A stretch of DNA of 11,256 nt from a bacterium. Its GTDB lineage: Bacteria; UBP14; UBA6098; JAFGQG01. Below, piece after piece: positions 2,495-11,256 of the stretch. The DNA is taken from the NCBI GenBank assembly GCA_016930435.1, contig JAFGGQ010000027.1, forward strand, positions 1-11,256, written 5' to 3'. Every line of letters starts with the position of its first letter. Position 1 is the first letter of the stretch. Below the pieces are notes generated by a model. That model was given only the letters and a program-made list of their open reading frames with translations, had not been told where the DNA came from and did no database searches. The translations under genes were made by a program, and so were the position numbers.

Positions 2495-3586
2495 CTACTG
2501 AAATCTTGCCTGGAATTGGATCAGTATCTCATCGTTCCGAAGATCAACTCCATCGGTGGCGAGATAATCGGCGACATAACGGTAGTTGACCTGAATCCGT
2601 GACCACTCGTTAATAAAGTAATTGAAGCCAAAGGTAATAATGGAATATTCATTATTATCCACGTTGTTGTCCGGATCGAACATTTCATATTTAATGATCG
2701 GTTGCAGGTTCCATGGGGTCATATACATAGCCTGTACGAATAAACCGCTGCTCTTTGTGGTATCCGGTGTTCCGGGAACGAAAGATGTATCGATGTGGGT
2801 TCCGGAACAGTCGGTTGTAGTATCAATAACAGTCATCCCTTGAGTTTCGGGTTTTTTGAAGTCGCCCATAATATATTCACCCTGGAGAAGGAAGTCCTTG
2901 TATTTAAGCTGTAATTCGCCACCGAAGTTGGTTATTTTGTTATCCTCTTCCAGTTTTCCCGTCGGTTTGGAGTTGCCCATATTAAAGCTGCCGCCCAGAG
3001 AAGCATATTCGATGGGTGATAATACTACTCTGCCGACGATATTCTTGCCGTCGTTATCGTCCCTGACACCCATTCCATTACCGTTTAATACAGCAAAGTT
3101 ATAGGACACCAGGTCATTATAATGGCCCATCAGCCATAGTCCAAGATCCCTCTGTGGTCCGGCTAACTCCTCCACAACCATGGACCTTTTGATGGTAAAC
3201 AATCCTGAGCAGGCAGTATTCTGTTCGAGGCTGAATGGAGACTTATTCTGTCCAACAGAAATTTTCAGATAAGGATCAAACCGTGTATAGGTAAAAATAC
3301 CGTCCAATACGCCAGGGTTTCCCAGGAATGGGCTCAGCTCAAGGCAGAGATAATAATTCACGTCATAAATCAGATCGCCAAACATGGCTATTCGCGCTCT
3401 TCTCATGGTGAATGACCAGTCATAAGCGGTATCCGCTGCAGTTTGTTTTATCTCCACTTCGGGTTGAAAGAATCCGGCAATATTCAATCCTTCATCTCCA
3501 CCGCCTCCCATACAACCCTGGGCATAGACCATACCTGCGCTTAACAAAAAGCTCAATAGTATTATTAGTAGAATTGGTTTTTTCAT
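2495..3586 (-). CDS. phosphate-selective porin O/P-like outer-membrane channel
   Basis: A predicted outer-membrane beta-barrel of the OprO/OprP type, 363 residues. It begins with a signal peptide (lysines, hydrophobic stretch, VYA near residue 22) and a short glycine-rich segment. Family features include the paired-arginine region MRRARIAMFGD (about 61-71), FSLEQNT in the early barrel, and alternating aromatic strands to a C-terminal strand ending ARFQ, with phenylalanine penultimate. Barrels of this family let anions across the outer membrane; OprP itself prefers phosphate. Setting among rhodanese genes suggests an anionic sulfur compound such as thiosulfate or polysulfide, which is inference. 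Cys25, just after the signal, is unusual but lacks a lipobox. Start ATG at 3586 has AAGGA seven bases upstream, preceded by a large hairpin. Confidence 0.82.
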   Translation of the reverse strand: MKKPILLIILLSFLLSAGMVYAQGCMGGGGDEGLNIAGFFQPEVEIKQTAADTAYDWSFTMRRARIAMFGDLIYDVNYYLCLELSPFLGNPGVLDGIFTYTRFDPYLKISVGQNKSPFSLEQNTACSGLFTIKRSMVVEELAGPQRDLGLWLMGHYNDLVSYNFAVLNGNGMGVRDDNDGKNIVGRVVLSPIEYASLGGSFNMGNSKPTGKLEEDNKITNFGGELQLKYKDFLLQGEYIMGDFKKPETQGMTVIDTTTDCSGTHIDTSFVPGTPDTTKSSGLFVQAMYMTPWNLQPIIKYEMFDPDNNVDNNEYSIITFGFNYFINEWSRIQVNYRYVADYLATDGVDLRNDEILIQFQARFQ

Positions 3587-3706: not shown

Positions 3707-4714
3707 CTACGGAGTGTCACCGGTATTCACTTCGTAGTCTCCCCAATCATCCTCATTAAAGGGATTACTTGCCCTGACATCAGCATTATTGGTCCAGGAC
3801 ATGATACCCCATTTCAGGTTTTTAGCTGTATAGCCTAACAGGTTCAATACAGTAGCAGCATATCCGCCAGTATGGCCGGTATAGCAATAAACCACGATGG
3901 TTCGGTCTGTAGGCAGTTTTTTCAGTTCAAGCGTATCTGAAGCTAAATCACTCCAGGGAATATTATATGCGCCCGGGATATGACCTATGGCATAATGCGT
4001 CGCGGATCTTACGGAGAGCACAAAGGGATCATTATCCTCATCTCCGTCATTAAGAAGGGAATCCAGATCGGCGGCAGTTATGGTCAATGGTACTGATGCC
4101 TGGGTTAAATAATCTTCCGCTGCCTGACGGGCAACTTCATTTATGCCGCCCTCAAGGGTCTTGAGAACGGTAAGTTTATCCGCATCATACACTTCTTTCC
4201 ATGGAATGTTCTCAGCCCCCGGGATATGACCTATAGCATAATGCGTCGCGCTCCGTACGCTCAATATCTGGGACCTTTCCTCCCCATTGATTTCGTCATA
4301 CAGGGTAATCGCAGAATATGTAACCGGGTCAATAGAATTCAGAGCATCATCCAGAATACCCAGTAATTCACTATCGAAATCGGGTAGATCATTATCAGCA
4401 GGATAGTCTTCAATTGTAGTTTCTGTTGCAGCGCCTATGCATTCTGTTTCTGTATAGGGGCTTGTAGCCCTGACATCCTCGTCTTTGGTCCAGGACATGA
4501 TCCCGAATCTTAAATTGGAAGCGTCATAGCCCATGGCTTTCAGGCACATAGTTGCCGCAGCACCACTATGCCCGGTATAGCAATATACGACCACTTTGTC
4601 GGTTAATGTAGGTTCATCGGGTTCTTCAGCTTCCTCTTTACAGCTCATGAACAAGCAAAAAGATAAACCCACTATCAAGGTAACAAGTATGGTCATCCAT
4701 CTTTTTTTAAACAT
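3707..4714 (-). CDS. lipoprotein with permuted plus normal rhodanese modules
   Basis: Envelope lipoprotein, 335 residues. The signal has a hydrophobic core and LFMSC lipobox, lipid Cys25. Only about 20 residues later comes a rhodanese C-terminal half with active loop CYTGHSG (Cys45) and GIMSWT. Then follows a rhodanese N-terminal half (SVR and GHIPGA at 152-167) with no catalytic loop after it. A complete module follows (about 209-310), with SVR, GHIPGA and loop CYTGHTG at Cys277. The halves therefore occur in the order C-N-N-C, so the first module looks circularly permuted. I chose ATG at 4714 because AGGAG (4724-4720) is spaced five bases from it but overlaps the in-frame GTG at 4720. Two catalytic cysteines suggest sulfur transfer at the membrane; donor and acceptor are unknown. 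It is 111 nt from the upstream gene. Confidence 0.87.
   Translation of the reverse strand: MFKKRWMTILVTLIVGLSFCLFMSCKEEAEEPDEPTLTDKVVVYCYTGHSGAAATMCLKAMGYDASNLRFGIMSWTKDEDVRATSPYTETECIGAATETTIEDYPADNDLPDFDSELLGILDDALNSIDPVTYSAITLYDEINGEERSQILSVRSATHYAIGHIPGAENIPWKEVYDADKLTVLKTLEGGINEVARQAAEDYLTQASVPLTITAADLDSLLNDGDEDNDPFVLSVRSATHYAIGHIPGAYNIPWSDLASDTLELKKLPTDRTIVVYCYTGHTGGYAATVLNLLGYTAKNLKWGIMSWTNNADVRASNPFNEDDWGDYEVNTGDTP
3972..4004. repeat. direct repeat copy 1 inside the permuted rhodanese gene
   Basis: A 33-bp stretch matching 4218-4250 at 32 of 33 positions, 246 bp apart and in the same frame. It encodes the ATHYAIGHIPG part of the complete rhodanese module near the protein's C-terminus. 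Confidence 0.9.
4218..4250. repeat. direct repeat copy 2 inside the permuted rhodanese gene
   Basis: Partner of 3972-4004, encoding the same segment in the isolated N-terminal half-module. The single difference is a silent third-position change (GCC against GCT). The adjoining five codons encode the same LSVRS residues but use mostly different codons. Confidence 0.9.
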
Positions 4715-4825
4715 TTTCACTCCTGTTAACGTTATGGTTAAAGATTTTTAGAAAATATAGTTCCTTAGATAGTTATCCTCCTTTTAGGTTATATATTACA
4801 GGTCAATATCGCTTTATGTTAAGTT

Positions 4826-5341
4826 TTATCCTCCGCATCCGCCTGAAGATACCGGTGCTTCTTCTTCAACTTCGGCGTCCGGGTCTTCCCACAACCGGTA
4901 ACCTCCTTTAAGGTTTTTTACATTGGTATAGCCCAGTTTAATAAGGGTTTCAGCAGCAAGCGCTCCCCTTTTGCCGCGGTGGCTGTAAACAACGATTTCC
5001 TCGTTTTTTTCGGGCATGAACAGGCCCCAATCATCCCAGAATGATTCATCGCCGATTTTGAATTCCAGATTGCCCCTGGGGATATTGAGTGACCAAGGAA
5101 TATTTCCTTCATCAAATTCGTCTGGTTCTCGAACATCTATAAGGACGAAGATCTCTTCTGCGTCAACTTTAGCGTGAAGTTCATGGCCTGTGATCTCGGG
5201 GAGGCCCATATTTGCTTCCGCTACCATTTCCTTGGCGCTTCCATAGGTTTTAGGGGCATTACCGTCAATACCTGCCCCTCCGCAACCTATAAGGTATGCC
5301 ATTAAAGTGGCCAGGAGTAAGAATAAAAAAGATTTTTTCAT
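4826..5341 (-). CDS. lipoprotein rhodanese lacking catalytic Cys, with GGCGG tail
   Basis: A 171-residue envelope lipoprotein with signal peptide and lipobox ending LIG-Cys20. A single rhodanese domain spans about 48-155: DVRE at 69-72, GNIP in place of GHIPG, and the active loop YSHRGKRG in which Ser120 (AGC) replaces the catalytic cysteine. It cannot be a normal rhodanese. After an acidic linker the protein ends exactly in SSGGCGG, with Cys169. This matches the C-terminal GGCGG arm on which SoxY carries sulfur intermediates, suggesting this protein is a tethered carrier using the rhodanese fold for docking (inference). Cys20 is lipidated, so Cys169 is the only free thiol. Start ATG at 5341 has AAAGGAGG seven bases upstream. 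It lies 13 nt after the YedE gene, so the two are surely co-transcribed. Confidence 0.9.
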   Translation of the reverse strand: MKKSFLFLLLATLMAYLIGCGGAGIDGNAPKTYGSAKEMVAEANMGLPEITGHELHAKVDAEEIFVLIDVREPDEFDEGNIPWSLNIPRGNLEFKIGDESFWDDWGLFMPEKNEEIVVYSHRGKRGALAAETLIKLGYTNVKNLKGGYRLWEDPDAEVEEEAPVSSGGCGG

Positions 5342-5354
5342 CGGTTAGCCTCCT

Positions 5355-6566
5355 TTATATTGCAGAGAATTTCCCTGTTCTCTCGTTCCACTTGACAAAG
5401 AGATACCAGAGTAAAATAATTACCAGCAGAAGTAAAACCGTACCCCAGTATTTGAACACATCGGGCAGGAATACAGTTTTTTGAGCCCATTCCGGCAATA
5501 GATGTGAGAACCCGGGAACGATGAACTTTTTAGAGATAGGGGCCATAAGTATGAATCCCAATCCTGCGAACCAGAGTTTGATCTGTCCTTCTCCTATTCG
5601 CCACAGTGTTCCTACCGCACAGCCTCCGGCGATTACCATCCCAATACCGAAAATAATGCCTCCGATCAGGGCTTTTAGCCAGAAGTGAGGATATACCCAG
5701 GTAAGGGCTAACACTCTGGCAGCGCCGGGGGTAGAAGCTCCAACTCCCATATATTTGATTACAGTGAAGCCGAACAGGGTAACCAGCAATGTGAGCATAA
5801 TTGCAACCGGGGCTTCTGATTCACCGGTCATAAAGGGTTCCCGGAATGAACGCGTAACGCAGAAACGGGAGCGTTGACATACCAGTCCAAGAAACAGACC
5901 AATAATAGCGAACCAGGTCAGCACGTTATCATTTTTGAACAGTCTTGATGCGCCGATAAGCAGGAAAGCAAATATGATTACGCCCAGCATTGGTTGCCAT
6001 ATACCTCCCTTACCTTTTGCGGCAAGGATGGTCAGGCTTTTTCCGGAACTCATTTTGGGCAGTTTTTCCATTTCCCACAGCAGGTATCTCAGGGCTAACC
6101 AGGCTCCTATAATGAATCCCAAGCCTATGAAAATAGCCCCGGCGTTCAAAGCGGGGATACCACTGAGAAAACCACCAACTGTGCAACCAATTCCCAGGGT
6201 GCAACCCAATGCCATGAATATCCCGCCGATGAAACCCTTTAACATCTCCCCCGCGGGAGGGATGCGCAGGGCAAATTCTCTGGAGAGCAGGGCTCCCAGC
6301 AATGCTCCCAGCAGGGTCATCGTACCCAGCAATCCATACAAATTATGGTGTACCGGGGCAATATTTTTCAACCCGAATATGCCTATCGCCTGATATAGGT
6401 TCTCACCCCAGTTAATATACGTTCCACTGCCGCCCCAGGGGGATTTAACCAGAAAGAGGCAGATGTTCAGTGTAGCCAGGATAAGGCCTCCTACCCACAT
6501 TGGCCAGCTTTTGCCAAAAAAGGTATTCCATAACTGGCGCCAGGCTCTATTCTTTTTCTCAGACAT
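5355..6566 (-). CDS. yedE: YeeE/YedE-family thiosulfate/sulfur-compound permease
   Basis: Inner-membrane protein of the YeeE/YedE family, 403 residues with about nine to ten hydrophobic segments. A characterised member (TsuA of Spirochaeta thermophila) imports thiosulfate using conserved cysteines. Two pseudo-repeated halves are visible: GCTLGIGCTVGG with Cys122 and Cys128 in the first, and GGCAVGTLWRIGEG with Cys316 in the second. Between them is CQRSRFC (Cys230, Cys236) followed by the family's TRSFREPF signature. These cysteines could pass sulfane sulfur rather than intact thiosulfate. Start ATG at 6566 has TAGGAGG seven bases upstream. It sits between TusA, the likely cytoplasmic acceptor, and the GGCGG lipoprotein on the outer face, which supports sulfur import. 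Substrate is inferred from family and neighbours. Confidence 0.9.
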   Translation of the reverse strand: MSEKKNRAWRQLWNTFFGKSWPMWVGGLILATLNICLFLVKSPWGGSGTYINWGENLYQAIGIFGLKNIAPVHHNLYGLLGTMTLLGALLGALLSREFALRIPPAGEMLKGFIGGIFMALGCTLGIGCTVGGFLSGIPALNAGAIFIGLGFIIGAWLALRYLLWEMEKLPKMSSGKSLTILAAKGKGGIWQPMLGVIIFAFLLIGASRLFKNDNVLTWFAIIGLFLGLVCQRSRFCVTRSFREPFMTGESEAPVAIMLTLLVTLFGFTVIKYMGVGASTPGAARVLALTWVYPHFWLKALIGGIIFGIGMVIAGGCAVGTLWRIGEGQIKLWFAGLGFILMAPISKKFIVPGFSHLLPEWAQKTVFLPDVFKYWGTVLLLLVIILLWYLFVKWNERTGKFSAI

Positions 6567-6626: not shown

Positions 6627-6860
6627 TTACGCCTTTTTAATGTAAAATTTGCTATGATCTCCGAGATCTTCTAAGCCTAAGAATTCATTCCCGGTCTTTT
6701 CACACCAGCCAGGAATATCCGTCTTGGAACCAGGGTCAGTACCTAATATCTCCAGCACCTCCCCACTGCTCATATCCTTGATTGCCTTGGCCATCTTCAA
6801 AATCGGCATGGGACAGGATAGTCCTCTGCAATCTAAGGTTTGATCTACTTTTACGTCCAT
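6627..6860 (-). CDS. tusA: TusA-family sulfur carrier protein
   Basis: A 77-residue cytoplasmic TusA/SirA-family protein, the usual length. The N-terminal strand leads into DCRGLSCPMP, the signature CPxP motif with Cys16 as the persulfide-carrying residue; Cys11 and Cys53 are additional. TusA proteins receive sulfane sulfur from desulfurases or rhodaneses and hand it on, for tRNA thiolation or for dissimilatory sulfur pathways. Pairing with a YedE permease and many rhodaneses points to the dissimilatory role. Start ATG at 6860 has AAAGGAGGT a few bases upstream. It is the first gene after the terminator at 6908-6957, so it probably opens a new transcription unit, though no clear promoter is visible in the short leader. 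YedE follows 60 nt downstream. Confidence 0.95.
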   Translation of the reverse strand: MDVKVDQTLDCRGLSCPMPILKMAKAIKDMSSGEVLEILGTDPGSKTDIPGWCEKTGNEFLGLEDLGDHSKFYIKKA

Positions 6861-7021: not shown

Positions 7022-7408
7022 TTATATTACCATGCTTGTTTTAAATAAAAGATCCTCCACGTTTTGATCGAGGCAAAATATGATGAACATTTCCCTGTTA
7101 CTTGTGTTAAGGTCGGTAAAAATATTCTCTACTTCAGCATTTAGGGCTTGTTTTATAATCCGGTGCAATGATGTCTTTGATCGTGCGAAGAGACAAGCCC
7201 GGCATTGCTTGACAAGAGTTACTCCCTCCGGGTCTATTGCCAGGTTCTGTTCAGTTAAAGTAAGTACTCCTTTCATTCTGATAATGACCAGATCCTTAAT
7301 TATATAGCATTTAACCTCTTCAGGGCCCTTTCCAACACGGCTCTTTTCAAATTTGGTTATCGATTCAGCTATTTCCGCCTCGATCTGGCCTTTACTCCGG
7401 GTTTCCAT
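7022..7408 (-). CDS. DUF2294 / MpsC-like protein
   Basis: A 128-residue soluble protein resembling the DUF2294 family (also called the MpsC domain). Recognisable family features are the opening GQIEAEIAESITKFEKS, then GKGPEEVKCYIIKDLVIIRMKGVLT, and the later EGVTLVKQCR helix. Family members in Gram-positive bacteria lie near MpsAB, linked to membrane potential or bicarbonate uptake; their biochemical role is not settled. Three cysteines (two in QCRAC, about 68-71, and one in the IIFC strand) are not something I know as family-conserved. I chose ATG at 7408, whose A is the last base of the mvhD-like stop (TGATG); a TTG one codon upstream is possible. It has no strong ribosome site, so translation is probably coupled. 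It is the last gene before the terminator. Confidence 0.68.
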   Translation of the reverse strand: METRSKGQIEAEIAESITKFEKSRVGKGPEEVKCYIIKDLVIIRMKGVLTLTEQNLAIDPEGVTLVKQCRACLFARSKTSLHRIIKQALNAEVENIFTDLNTSNREMFIIFCLDQNVEDLLFKTSMVI

Positions 7409-7833
7409 CAAATAAAAACTTTGCTTTTTACAGGATTTGGTCCCTTTTTTCTGGTATTTTCAGTATATTCAGTTATTACACTGGCGAAACGGGGTCCTTC
7501 CGAAGCGGATATCCATGATAACCGCAGCCGTTCGGGTTCCAAACCCAGTGATTCGAAGATGGTTTTCATCATAGCCATTCTTCTTCTTGTATAATAGTTA
7601 CCTTCGATATAATGGCAGTCACCGGGATGGCAGCCCCCGATCAACACAGCATCAGCGCCACGAAGATAAGCAGTGATCAAAAAGACCGGATCCACCCTGC
7701 TGGAACACATTACCCGGATCGGCAAAACGTTCGGAGGATATTGCAGCCGGCTGGTTCCTGCAAGGTCCGCACCCGCATAAGTGCACCATTTGCAAAAGAA
7801 TCCAACTATCCTGGGCTCAAAAGTATCGCTCAT
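7408..7833 (-). CDS. mvhD: MvhD/FlpD-like [2Fe-2S] electron-transfer adaptor
   Basis: A 141-residue protein of the MvhD/FlpD family (hydrogenase iron-sulfur subunit), which carries a [2Fe-2S] cluster and passes electrons from a hydrogenase or formate dehydrogenase to HdrA. Motifs: FFCKWCTYAGADLAG with Cys14 and Cys17, VMCSSRVDP with Cys43, and GGCHPGDCHY with Cys68 and Cys73, the five conserved cysteines. Length is typical for the stand-alone form. Start ATG at 7833 has GAGGAGA upstream. It follows the second FrhB-like gene by 31 nt and overlaps the next gene by one base. With HdrA in the same operon it supports a flavin-based electron-bifurcating or confurcating complex, but no hydrogenase or formate dehydrogenase large subunit appears in the window. 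Confidence 0.93.
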   Translation of the reverse strand: MSDTFEPRIVGFFCKWCTYAGADLAGTSRLQYPPNVLPIRVMCSSRVDPVFLITAYLRGADAVLIGGCHPGDCHYIEGNYYTRRRMAMMKTIFESLGLEPERLRLSWISASEGPRFASVITEYTENTRKKGPNPVKSKVFI

Positions 7834-7864: not shown

Positions 7865-8983
7865 TTATTTATCCTCGATCTCCTCAAATTCCTGCTTCTC
7901 AAATTTGGTCAATGGTATCTTCTCTTCCAGATCCTTGCCGGGAATATATTTAAATAAATCCTGGATGGCTTCACCGACCTTGCTGAATATGGTGGAAACC
8001 GGGATCTCAACCGGACAGACATCGGAACATAATCCACAGGAAACACAAGAGATGCCCATGTGAGATAACCGACCTATATGAAAGAGCAATGTGTTCGGGG
8101 GAACCCTTAAGCCGCCCCTCTTGATGATCTCCGCTTCAAAAATGTTCGGTTCGAACTCATGATCCTTGGATTCAAAATCACAAAGGATGCAATAGCATAT
8201 CGGGCAAGTATTGCTGCATCCATGACAGCCAATACAACGCCCGAAAACATCGATCAAATTGTCTATCCCATAGATATCCGCATTGATTGATTCAAAAAGA
8301 CCGTCTTTAGCCTTTTGGCGCAAGGCTTTAAGGTCCTGAGCAGTCTTGGGGTCAGCCTTTGTTTCGGTCCATTTTACGTCAAAGCCATCCAGAATGCTTT
8401 CTCCTTTATCGGTCATTACGGTTATCTGGCAAGTCTGATCCAGGTCTTGACCAATAAGATCAAAGCTAATATCGGCTGTATAAGGTTCAAAATGAATGCA
8501 AGCCTTGCAGGTAGGCCGGACTTTATCCGGAATCTGGTTTTTTCTGACCGCACCCCAGTATGCCTTAATATCCTGGTCCAGGTTGCCATTCAAATAGGAG
8601 TCGAAGGTAAGCACTCCGCCGCAACTATGTGATATGATCAGGAGGTTATCTAAATGTCCTTGCTCCCTTTTAACCAGTTCTACAAAAGCCCTTAATTCGC
8701 AAGGTTTCAGAACCACTGCTATGGGCGCACTAATTGGGCCTTTCAGGGTAAGATAAGAGACCAGTTTACCGGCGTTTGCGGGCATCAGGGGGAAGAATGG
8801 CAAAGCGTTGTCCAATTCTTCCGTACTGGAAATCAGGGAATAATTGAGGGTATAATCTTGGTCAGTTGCCACGGTTTTGCTGAGGGCCATTACCGCTTTT
8901 GCCTTGCCGCTTTCCAGAAGGTGTTTAAGGAAATCCTGAAGGCATTTTTCCGCACCTTTATTCGTTTTCAGAATTTTACTCAT
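7865..8983 (-). CDS. FrhB/FdhB-like iron-sulfur oxidoreductase subunit, paralog 2
   Basis: A 372-residue cytoplasmic iron-sulfur protein. The N-terminal half resembles the C-terminal domain of F420-type FrhB/FdhB subunits, with the marker KPCELRAFVEL around Cys95, SCGG at Cys121 and a CxxC at Cys159/Cys162. The C-terminal half has two cluster motifs: a dense CIGCHGC...CPICYCILC run (Cys250, 253, 256, 260, 263, 265, 268) and CVSCGLC...CP (Cys313, 316, 319, 323). The order, FrhB-like then ferredoxin-like, is the reverse of classical FrhB. Start ATG at 8983 overlaps the upstream stop by four bases (ATGA), with AGGAGA ahead. It is a clear paralog of the protein encoded just upstream. It may oxidise NAD(P)H or another carrier for HdrA; a bound flavin is plausible but not visible from sequence. 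Confidence 0.78.
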   Translation of the reverse strand: MSKILKTNKGAEKCLQDFLKHLLESGKAKAVMALSKTVATDQDYTLNYSLISSTEELDNALPFFPLMPANAGKLVSYLTLKGPISAPIAVVLKPCELRAFVELVKREQGHLDNLLIISHSCGGVLTFDSYLNGNLDQDIKAYWGAVRKNQIPDKVRPTCKACIHFEPYTADISFDLIGQDLDQTCQITVMTDKGESILDGFDVKWTETKADPKTAQDLKALRQKAKDGLFESINADIYGIDNLIDVFGRCIGCHGCSNTCPICYCILCDFESKDHEFEPNIFEAEIIKRGGLRVPPNTLLFHIGRLSHMGISCVSCGLCSDVCPVEIPVSTIFSKVGEAIQDLFKYIPGKDLEEKIPLTKFEKQEFEEIEDK

Positions 8984-10185
8984 TGATCTTCTCCTGATTC
9001 AAGTACATCTTTACACATAGAGCACACTTCCGGGAGTTCTTTATCCTCCTGGTAAATTCGCATGGGAAGAGTTTCATCAAGATTTCTACCCGCTGCATAT
9101 TCGAATGCCTGTTGGGTCTGATCCGAACTGAAGGCAAAAACCTGTCCTACTATGATATCCATGGGGCAGGCGTCCTGGCAGGTGCCGCAGGATACGCAGG
9201 AAAGAGACATGTGAGAGAGTCTGCCAATCTGGAAAAGCAGTGAATCCGGTTTGAACCAAAGACTACCCTTCTTCATGGAGCGTTCCAGGTAAGTATCTGC
9301 GGAATGCTTGAGCATTTCAGAGTCGAAATAGCATTTCTGACAGTAGCATACCGGGCATACTCTCATGCAATTATGACAGTTTATACAAAAGGCAAATGCT
9401 TTAGGGAACTTCTCCGGTCCGCTGATTTCCTTATCCAGCTTTTCATGGGCAGTTTTGCGTTTCCCACACTTTTGGGCGTTAATTTCTTTGACCTTTGATT
9501 GCCATGTTTGAGTATCGGAACTGAGTGCCTGGCCGGTTTTCTCCAGTAGTTCATTACCAATATCACTGAACGGGATCAACAGCCCTTTATTCTCAGGTAC
9601 TCCCAGCAGGGCAAAATGTATATCCGGGAAAGTGGCGTTATCCACATCTATCGGCGCACTCATCTTATCACAGATCTGACAAACAGGCCGCATTTGAGGG
9701 CTGAGAAAATCACCCTTTTCCAGTAATTGCTGGAATTGGGTTTCCCCTTTTTCCGGATCTGAAAACCAATCCTTAAGGGGGATAACCCCGGGACAATCAA
9801 GGGTGATAAAAACGACTTTTTCCATATCCAGTTGCTTTAATTTGCATAACTCTATAGCTGCTCTCTGTTCGCAAGGTCTCAATACGGCACCGATCCTGAG
9901 GTCTGGTGCACCATGTTTAGTGATACTGGAGAGCGCCCTTGCCCCCTGAACAGGCATGATAGGGGCGAAGGGATTAGCATCCTCCAGCAGAGATTTATCT
10001 TTGACCAGGACCCAGGCATAGGAGTCACCCGCGGGAACCTTCATGGGGATCAGCAAGGCATCCAGGAGCCCATTATCGAGGGTCTCCCGGAGAAACGAGA
10101 GTAACGCTCCCCGGGCTCCTTCAGCCAAACTTAGAGGGGCTCCCTTTAAGTCTATGGAGTCCGAACTTTTGTTTCCACTAACCAT
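8980..10185 (-). CDS. FrhB/FdhB-like iron-sulfur oxidoreductase subunit, paralog 1
   Basis: A 401-residue paralog of the next gene, same architecture. The FrhB/FdhB-like N-terminal half has LRPCEQRAAIEL at Cys105, DCPG at Cys131 and CxxC at Cys169/Cys172. The cluster region has CINCHNC...CPVCYCQKC (Cys267, 270, 273, 277, 280, 282, 285) and CVSCGTC...CP (Cys330, 333, 336, 340). Unlike its partner it has an extra C-terminal CSMC pair (Cys388, Cys391). The shared block LLFQIGRLSHM before the second cluster is nearly identical in both proteins. Start ATG at 10185 has AAGGAG upstream, 28 nt after the HdrA stop. The duplication suggests a heterodimer, or two electron inputs on one HdrA. Alternatives are relatives of AsrA- or sulfhydrogenase-beta-type ferredoxin subunits, which share the two-cluster layout. 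Confidence 0.78.
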   Translation of the reverse strand: MVSGNKSSDSIDLKGAPLSLAEGARGALLSFLRETLDNGLLDALLIPMKVPAGDSYAWVLVKDKSLLEDANPFAPIMPVQGARALSSITKHGAPDLRIGAVLRPCEQRAAIELCKLKQLDMEKVVFITLDCPGVIPLKDWFSDPEKGETQFQQLLEKGDFLSPQMRPVCQICDKMSAPIDVDNATFPDIHFALLGVPENKGLLIPFSDIGNELLEKTGQALSSDTQTWQSKVKEINAQKCGKRKTAHEKLDKEISGPEKFPKAFAFCINCHNCMRVCPVCYCQKCYFDSEMLKHSADTYLERSMKKGSLWFKPDSLLFQIGRLSHMSLSCVSCGTCQDACPMDIIVGQVFAFSSDQTQQAFEYAAGRNLDETLPMRIYQEDKELPEVCSMCKDVLESGEDQ

Positions 10186-10213: not shown

Positions 10214-11256
10214 CTATCTCAATGCTTCAATAACTTCCTTGTAGAGTTCCGAAGTAGTAAAGTGCTTTGCCCGAATGGCGTTCGAAGGACAGCTTCCGGC
10301 GCAGTTCCCGCAGCCACGGCAGATCGCCTCATTGACTACCGATATACCCTTATTTTCATCATAACTTATAGCACCGTAACAGCATACAGTCAGGCAGGTT
10401 TGGCAACCCGTACAGAAAGCTTCGATTACTTCGGAAACCTTGACTTCCGGCTCTAATTTGCGTCCCGGAACCAGACTGGCAAATATTTTGCCCGTAGCCG
10501 CCTGAGCCTGCATAACCGATTCCACAATGTTCTTGGGACCCTGAGCGCAACCTACCGCAAAAATCCCATCCATGGGAGTGGCAATTGGATTCAACTTCTC
10601 ATGAGCCTCTTTGAAAAAACCTGTGCTGTGGAGTGGAACATTGATAATCTCCGCTACAACCGGGGTGGAAATTGCCGGTTTTATTCCCGGAGCTAAAATG
10701 ACCATATCCACGCTCAACTTTTCTTCTTTACCCGAGATCGATTTGTAAGCAATGTTAACCTGGCTACCGGAGGAGGTTATTTTGCTAACTTCCTGAAGAC
10801 GGATAAAATTGACTCCCTGCTCCACGGTTTGCTGATAATACTTCTGATCCTTCTCATGGGGAACACAGATATCCCGGTGCAATTCGTGAATCTCGATGCC
10901 GGATACTTTCGCCTTTAAATACTGAGCGATCTCCATGAGATTGGTACAGCAGACCTTTGAACAATAGCCCATTTCCTCGCGGCCAACGCAATGAACAAGG
11001 GCTACTGATTTTGGGGTCTTTCCATCCTTCAGGGTTAATTTACCATCGCTGCCCATCATCTCGACTACTTCCTCGGAAGTGACTACATTATCAACACTGG
11101 TATAACCCCATTTTTCCATTCTCGTAGGATCGTAAAAGTCAAAACCGGTGGCGATAACCACCGCTCCAGCAACCAAGTTTCTTTCTGCTCCTTCCTCGCC
11201 ACCCGATTTCAGGGTTATTTCATAATTTCCGAAGAAACCAATAACCCTATCAACAG
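10214..11256 (-). CDS. hdrA: HdrA-like flavin/iron-sulfur subunit, N-terminus outside window
   Basis: The C-terminal 346 residues of an HdrA-like heterodisulfide reductase subunit; the frame stays open to the window edge, so TTG at 11176 is an internal leucine, not a start. HdrA holds FAD and iron-sulfur clusters and is the site of flavin-based electron bifurcation. Visible marks are the end of the FAD-binding fold (GAVVIATGFD), HCVGREEMGYCSKVCC with the HdrA-specific cysteines at visible residues 89, 98, 102, 103, a second nucleotide-fold stretch ending GIFAVGCAQGPKNI, and two C-terminal ferredoxin motifs. The first ferredoxin motif reads CTGCQTCLTVCC, with cysteine where proline is normal; the second, CRGCGNCAGSCP, is canonical. 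It ends TAG at 10214. As first visible gene of the operon it anchors the Hdr module; HdrB/HdrC are absent downstream. Confidence 0.92.
   Translation of the reverse strand, partial: VDRVIGFFGNYEITLKSGGEEGAERNLVAGAVVIATGFDFYDPTRMEKWGYTSVDNVVTSEEVVEMMGSDGKLTLKDGKTPKSVALVHCVGREEMGYCSKVCCTNLMEIAQYLKAKVSGIEIHELHRDICVPHEKDQKYYQQTVEQGVNFIRLQEVSKITSSGSQVNIAYKSISGKEEKLSVDMVILAPGIKPAISTPVVAEIINVPLHSTGFFKEAHEKLNPIATPMDGIFAVGCAQGPKNIVESVMQAQAATGKIFASLVPGRKLEPEVKVSEVIEAFCTGCQTCLTVCCYGAISYDENKGISVVNEAICRGCGNCAGSCPSNAIRAKHFTTSELYKEVIEALR

Follow-up and report, generated by a model that had tools for sequence, protein, structure and literature searches.

Among the described systems close to the protein analysed here is SoxY (SoxYZ, PF13501), with which it shares a C-terminal GGCGG arm bearing one reactive cysteine, a predicted location outside the cytoplasm and a sulfur context. 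The sulfur-binding role of the SoxY cysteine is established (PMC6067878), and the route by which periplasmic sulfane sulfur passes from a carrier into the cytoplasm has been described as unknown, even for SoxYZ (PMC11582611). The single-domain rhodaneses GlpE, PspE and TSTD1 (PF00581) share its fold and the position of its active loop, and the rhodanese-like selenoproteins of forms 1-5 likewise combine a rhodanese domain with selenocysteine (Sec, U) in some members (PMC13188914, Table 1). As regards gene order, the comparable set is the YTD cluster of sulfur disproportionators, which consists of yedE, tusA, dsrE, chp1 and chp2 and has been described in complete form only from Desulfobacterota and Nitrospirota (PMC12998232, PMC13047784).

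The protein nevertheless differs from each of these. In contrast to SoxY, it has a rhodanese fold, a lipobox, a gene adjacent to yedE and relatives with Sec; unlike GlpE, PspE and TSTD1, its lineage has serine in place of the loop cysteine and bears the reactive residue on a C-terminal arm. The motifs of the rhodanese-like selenoproteins (UxxS, UxxG, CxU and UxxxxU) include no C-terminal GGU(G/D) (PMC13188914). SoxY-type GGCGG arms and Sec rhodaneses are each known separately, and their combination on one rhodanese lipoprotein appears to be new: literature searches returned no description of a rhodanese lipoprotein with a GGCGG-type arm or of Cys/Sec exchange in such an arm, and the tailed rhodaneses score below the cut-off of every NCBIfam model.

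The window, a stretch of 11,256 nucleotides, comes from a genome bin of 2.85 Mb in 180 contigs that is about 90% complete, and all genes discussed lie on its minus strand. The tailed gene (4826-5341) starts with ATG behind an upstream AAGGAGG and encodes 171 amino acids, in which Pfam finds the Rhodanese family alone (residues 53-152, E=1.1e-18) and no SoxY domain (PF13501). An AlphaFold2 model with a pLDDT of 86 matches 2hhg, 6mxv and GlpE in Foldseek, whereas the last 15 or so residues fall to a pLDDT of 40-58; the rhodanese domain is confidently predicted, and the C-terminal tail is predicted to be flexible. The hydrophobic N-terminal segment ends in LIGC and qualifies as a lipoprotein signal peptide, and the lipobox cysteine, Cys20 (codon 5282-5284), which is invariant in the A3 alignment group, would tether the protein to a membrane; the residue at position +2 after it is glycine here and aspartate in the protein of relative L006. 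The active-site loop VVYSHRGKRGALAA (YSHRGKRG, residues 119-126, 4964-4987) places Ser120 (4982-4984) where active rhodaneses have cysteine, and the protein ends in the arm SSGGCGG (4829-4849), whose Cys169 is encoded by TGC (4835-4837) and not by TGA. With C20 and C169 as the only cysteines, the original prediction of a lipoprotein with a cysteine-free loop and a single free thiol in a SoxY-like tail is borne out on the protein itself.

The gene lies directly 3' of yedE (5355-6566), assigned by Pfam and by alignment with StTsuA of Spirochaeta thermophila, and upstream of yedE follow tusA (6627-6860; Pfam TusA, 6.5e-26), an MpsC-family gene (7022-7411), flpD/mvhD (7408-7833), two Fe-S protein genes (7865-8983 and 8980-10185, with weak matches to AsrA- and ShyB-type subunits) and a gene for an HdrA-like flavoprotein/ferredoxin (10214-11254, judged by sequence) that extends beyond the end of the window and is syntenic in L006. 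On the other side, in order of transcription, come a rhodanese lipoprotein with the loops CYTGHSG and CYTGHTG (3707-4720), an OprO/P-type porin (2495-3586), an SseA-like two-domain sulfurtransferase with a signal peptide and the loop CETSIRAG (1590-2462), a NifU-like protein and a further rhodanese lipoprotein with the loops CYTGQS and CWTGQT (161-1132), so that three other rhodanese-type genes lie near the tailed one. A rhodanese lipoprotein also comes after the tailed gene in relatives. The side-by-side position of yedE and tusA recalls the YTD cluster, as does dsrE, which is absent from the window and present in several relatives (L007 by the Pfam family DrsE_2; L006 and L013 by sequence); here, however, the genes next after yedE form a module made up of the tailed rhodanese, a rhodanese lipoprotein, the porin and the SseA-like protein. 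With this arrangement the range of YTD-like gene sets widens from the described phyla to uncultured ones.

Within the phylum of the window, 17 genomes were examined and the gene was found in three besides the window genome, each time right after yedE. These orthologs are 54-59% identical to the window protein, carry serine in the loop (YSRKG, YSQKG and YSMKG) and all end in SGGCGG; C20 and C169 are the only cysteines conserved among the four proteins, and the sequences encoding the tail differ in synonymous codons. Since the window protein as sole query of genome contigs gave no match, a second scan used a YedE alignment over named genomes and yielded 80 loci. Searches with rhodanese queries gave matches in 17 of 124 genomes of Cloacimonadota, 4 of 13 of Delongbacteria, 38 of 393 of Bacteroidales and 1 of 245 of Neomarinimicrobiota; Fermentibacterota, archaea and Desulfobacterota were covered by the YedE scan only, and their loci showed no tailed rhodanese. 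Among the 1,375 non-overlapping open reading frames of all loci, the C-terminal motif occurs only in these rhodaneses and in one short spurious frame; the tail, shared with the three orthologs, is more than a chance occurrence. One tailed rhodanese from a locus labelled Armatimonadota (L024) groups within Cloacimonadota in the tree, and its bin or contig is likely mislabelled.

The census of the yedE-type proteins (group A) comprises 69 distinct members from at least six phyla. Their tails contain cysteine in 54 cases and an in-frame TGA in 10, and are missing in 5, so that 64 of the 69 have Cys or Sec at this position; the loop residue is cysteine in 60, serine in 6, and threonine, glycine and aspartate in one each. 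All nine members without loop cysteine retain the tail. Bacteroidota have a second paralog (group B, n=22), in which the 20 complete members all have the tail cysteine and three proteins have a loop cysteine. The loop cysteine was lost at least six times in a tree of 91 proteins, and the tail is kept in 26 of 26 complete homologs that lack it. The expectation that loss of the loop cysteine would co-occur with the tail therefore stands in one direction, as no protein lacking the loop cysteine is without a tail, and fails in the other, as most tailed homologs keep it. A tie between the two features was rejected, for the split (26:0 without loop cysteine versus 58:5 with it) is not significant at about 0.17 (one-sided, hand-computed, relatedness ignored). 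Nor does the loss of the loop cysteine define the class, as had been supposed, because 60 of 69 yedE-type homologs retain that residue; it is the arm that does so. On these comparisons the tail is real and old, with the arm as the constant part and the loop cysteine as a dispensable one. L121, which had been taken as tail-less, was rejected as such, its intact tail sitting in another frame behind a frameshift. Four Bacteroidota homologs of group A are truly tail-less; three of them adjoin yedE, and in these three loci the next paralog ends in PEGC.

The proximity to yedE is equally constant. As had been anticipated from the window, 53 of the 54 group A members whose tail has at least one residue after the Cys or Sec (GC/UG) lie directly 3' of yedE; the remaining one is found at a contig edge. 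This adjacency is not merely a product of the YedE-based search, because 27 of the 53 were found by rhodanese query. Where the fetched stretch contains no yedE, as for eleven Bacteroidales members, the protein terminates in GGC or SGSC or is tail-less.

Ten distinct sequences, six from Cloacimonadota and four from Delongbacteria, have an in-frame TGA at the position of the tail cysteine, and their ends read GG-TGA-GAY-stop, GG-TGA-GGN-stop or, in L038, GG-TGA-GGC-GGG-stop, the last of which gives GG-U-GG, the exact counterpart of GGCGG. Each of the ten has a SECIS-like hairpin after the TGA. Because the MAFFT alignment put the hairpins of L114 and L116 out of place, pairing was scored in a hand-set register; there, every one of the ten sequences forms five stem pairs, and each position is represented by three pair types. 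The loops are AGUU, AGUUU, AGGUU, AGGUG and UGUAC, with G at the second position, and in the nine scanned sequences the loop starts 16-21 nt after the TGA. The published bSECIS model prescribes a loop of 3-9 nt, a stem of 4-16 bp, a G in the first two loop positions, a spacing of 16-37 nt and an energy of at most -7.5 kcal/mol (PMC13188914); the geometry of the hairpins agrees with it throughout, and the energy is reached by five of the ten folds (L031, L100, L114, L115 and L116). The scan detected the hairpin in nine of nine TGA forms versus 14 of 77 non-TGA homologs (p about 2e-6, relatedness ignored). Among the six TGA genomes tested, which did not include those of L100 and L114-L116, tRNA-Sec scores over its cut-off in all six and SelB in five, with a partial SelB in the sixth (G029). 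In the window genome and its close relatives, no SelB exceeds the cut-off and no tRNA-Sec was found save one marginal match in G012. The exchange of Cys for Sec marks the tail residue as reactive, and the tail very probably performs the sulfur chemistry. Standard annotation would take the TGA for the end of the Sec forms and lose the arm.

The exchange is not confined to the arm. With TGA read as U across all loci and aligned to the window proteins, it falls on rhodanese C169, YedE C316 (codon 5619-5621), porin C260 and FlpD C68 (in GGCHPGDCHY), besides a few sporadic positions, and the TGAs of the neighbouring genes are followed by hairpins of the same kind as those of the arm. YedE C316, C128 and C236 align with Cys91, Cys293 and Cys22 of StTsuA, with the protein halves in swapped order; Cys91, whose position is occupied by alanine in 6lep, is indispensable for transport (PMC11582611). 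C316 is encoded by TGA in L034, L042 and L050 (AGGUAVG), loci with a cysteine arm on the rhodanese, and in this small sample no locus combines a Sec-containing YedE with a Sec arm. L050 (genome G035) has TGA in both YedE and FlpD and neither tRNA-Sec nor SelB over the cut-off, its bin being probably incomplete. FlpD C68 is TGA in eight relatives. Porin C260 aligns with GGG(C/U)(G/D) or GGCGG of relatives and is TGA in L025, L032, L038 and L042, whose porin is a candidate outer-membrane selenoprotein; in a model of moderate quality this residue sits at a hairpin tip, which by strand counting is probably extracellular. The table of a review lists FlpD and YedE among selenoproteins, and Table 1 of the same article contains neither an OprP-type porin nor a rhodanese with a GGU(G/D) tail (PMC13188914). 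As for other cysteines of the porin, the predicted mature N-terminus in the window, QGCMGGG, presents a second glycine-flanked one, and ten relatives all share C25 and C126.

We consider it probable, at roughly 0.6, that the window protein is a tethered periplasmic sulfane-sulfur carrier that passes sulfur to YedE/TusA by a SoxY-like mechanism on an unrelated fold. The lipobox cysteine would anchor the carrier in a membrane, the rhodanese domain would serve as a folded body for docking and cargo binding, and the thiol of Cys169 on the flexible arm would carry sulfane sulfur in persulfide or thiosulfonate form. In most relatives the loop cysteine could load its own arm intramolecularly; in the window lineage, since the loop is dead (Ser120), the arm would be loaded in trans by the Cys-loop rhodaneses at 3707-4720 (a candidate donor adjacent to the tailed gene), 1590-2462 and 161-1132, or else polysulfide or thiosulfate taken in through the porin would load it directly. 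The arm would then hand the sulfur to the adjacent YedE, and TusA would receive it inside for Hdr/FlpD-type proteins. The computed support consists of the conservation of the tail, the Cys/Sec exchange together with SECIS-like hairpins and Sec machinery in relatives, the yedE adjacency, the repeated loss of the loop cysteine with the tail kept and the predicted flexibility of the tail; the cargo, the direction of transfer and the partners of the arm are inferred. Against this reading stand the tail-less Bacteroidota homologs and the lack of a true match for DsrA, AprA or SoxY in the window genome. DsrA was not found in 13 genomes and AprA in one Bacteroidales genome only; the SoxY search had no match in 12 genomes, and its control genomes were equally without one.

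The exchange of Cys for Sec shows a reactive residue and not sulfur as the cargo, and a thiol-redox arm would look alike. In the main rival, albeit an unlikely one, the tail is no sulfur carrier but a thiol or selenol arm whose targets for reduction would be disulfides or persulfides of YedE, the porin or neighbouring proteins. Mammalian thioredoxin reductase has a comparable C-terminal arm, Gly-Cys-Sec-Gly. In favour of this rival, redox sites typically use Sec, the arm here is glycine-flanked and C-terminal, and porin and YedE exchange Cys for Sec too. However, a redox cycle normally needs a second thiol, which the window protein does not offer, and the context is one of sulfurtransferases, YedE and TusA. 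It is very improbable that arm and YedE instead import selenium compounds. The YedE family does include putative selenium transporters (the model match lying far below the cut-off) and Sec-using relatives exist, yet the window genome and its close relatives keep the whole cluster with the near-absence of Sec machinery noted above, and the rhodanese, TusA, DsrE and Hdr-like neighbours indicate sulfur.

Equally little weight attaches to the reading in which the TGA of Cloacimonadota and Delongbacteria is an ordinary stop behind a shorter tail ending in SGG. About half of the hairpins are indeed weaker than the bSECIS energy limit, but in all ten sequences the frame behind the TGA closes after a single codon for G or D, or after GG in L038, where this restores the arm exactly, and the covarying hairpin at fixed spacing, its rarity among non-TGA homologs and the Sec machinery of the genomes tested speak for decoding. 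Least probable of all is a functionless degenerate rhodanese, the tail of which would be inherited baggage or a C-terminal anchoring signal; the catalytic cysteine is gone in the window lineage, but both tail and fold persist across phyla while their codons change synonymously, the tail is not preceded by a hydrophobic or basic stretch such as known C-terminal sorting signals have, and Sec would hardly be spent on mere baggage.

Beyond the single carrier, we give an even chance to a Sox-independent relay across the whole envelope, in which sulfur would pass from the glycine-rich Cys/Sec hairpin of the porin over lipoprotein rhodaneses with swinging GG(C/U)G arms to the Cys/Sec site of YedE and to TusA inside, with several sulfur-handling cysteines replaced by Sec in some lineages and the tailed rhodaneses constituting a new selenoprotein family. 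In almost all genomes that encode it, the candidate tethered carrier adjoins a channel gene; it offers one residue to mutate, and the Cys/Sec exchange points to residues in arm, channel and porin that may touch the cargo.

Four of the Bacteroidales loci without yedE (L138, L140, L142 and L144) encode rhodanese lipoproteins ending in GGC that adjoin a cytochrome b561-type gene, identified by Pfam in L138 and by sequence in the others, together with a multihaem-like protein recognised by sequence; the b561-type gene is followed by a rhodanese lipoprotein and a porin in three of the four loci and by an SseA-like gene in the other one. This may be the same module attached to a different partner. 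In a SAR324 bin, a locus lacking a tailed rhodanese encodes near yedE a protein with SoxY and desulfoferrodoxin Pfam matches that ends in AAGGC (L062:10699-11163); a true SoxY in this place fits a functional replacement, as if either carrier could fill the slot. In Thermoplasmata (L048:5545-8574 and L049), the gene after yedE encodes a protein of about 1,000 residues that looks secreted and consists of many rhodanese repeats.
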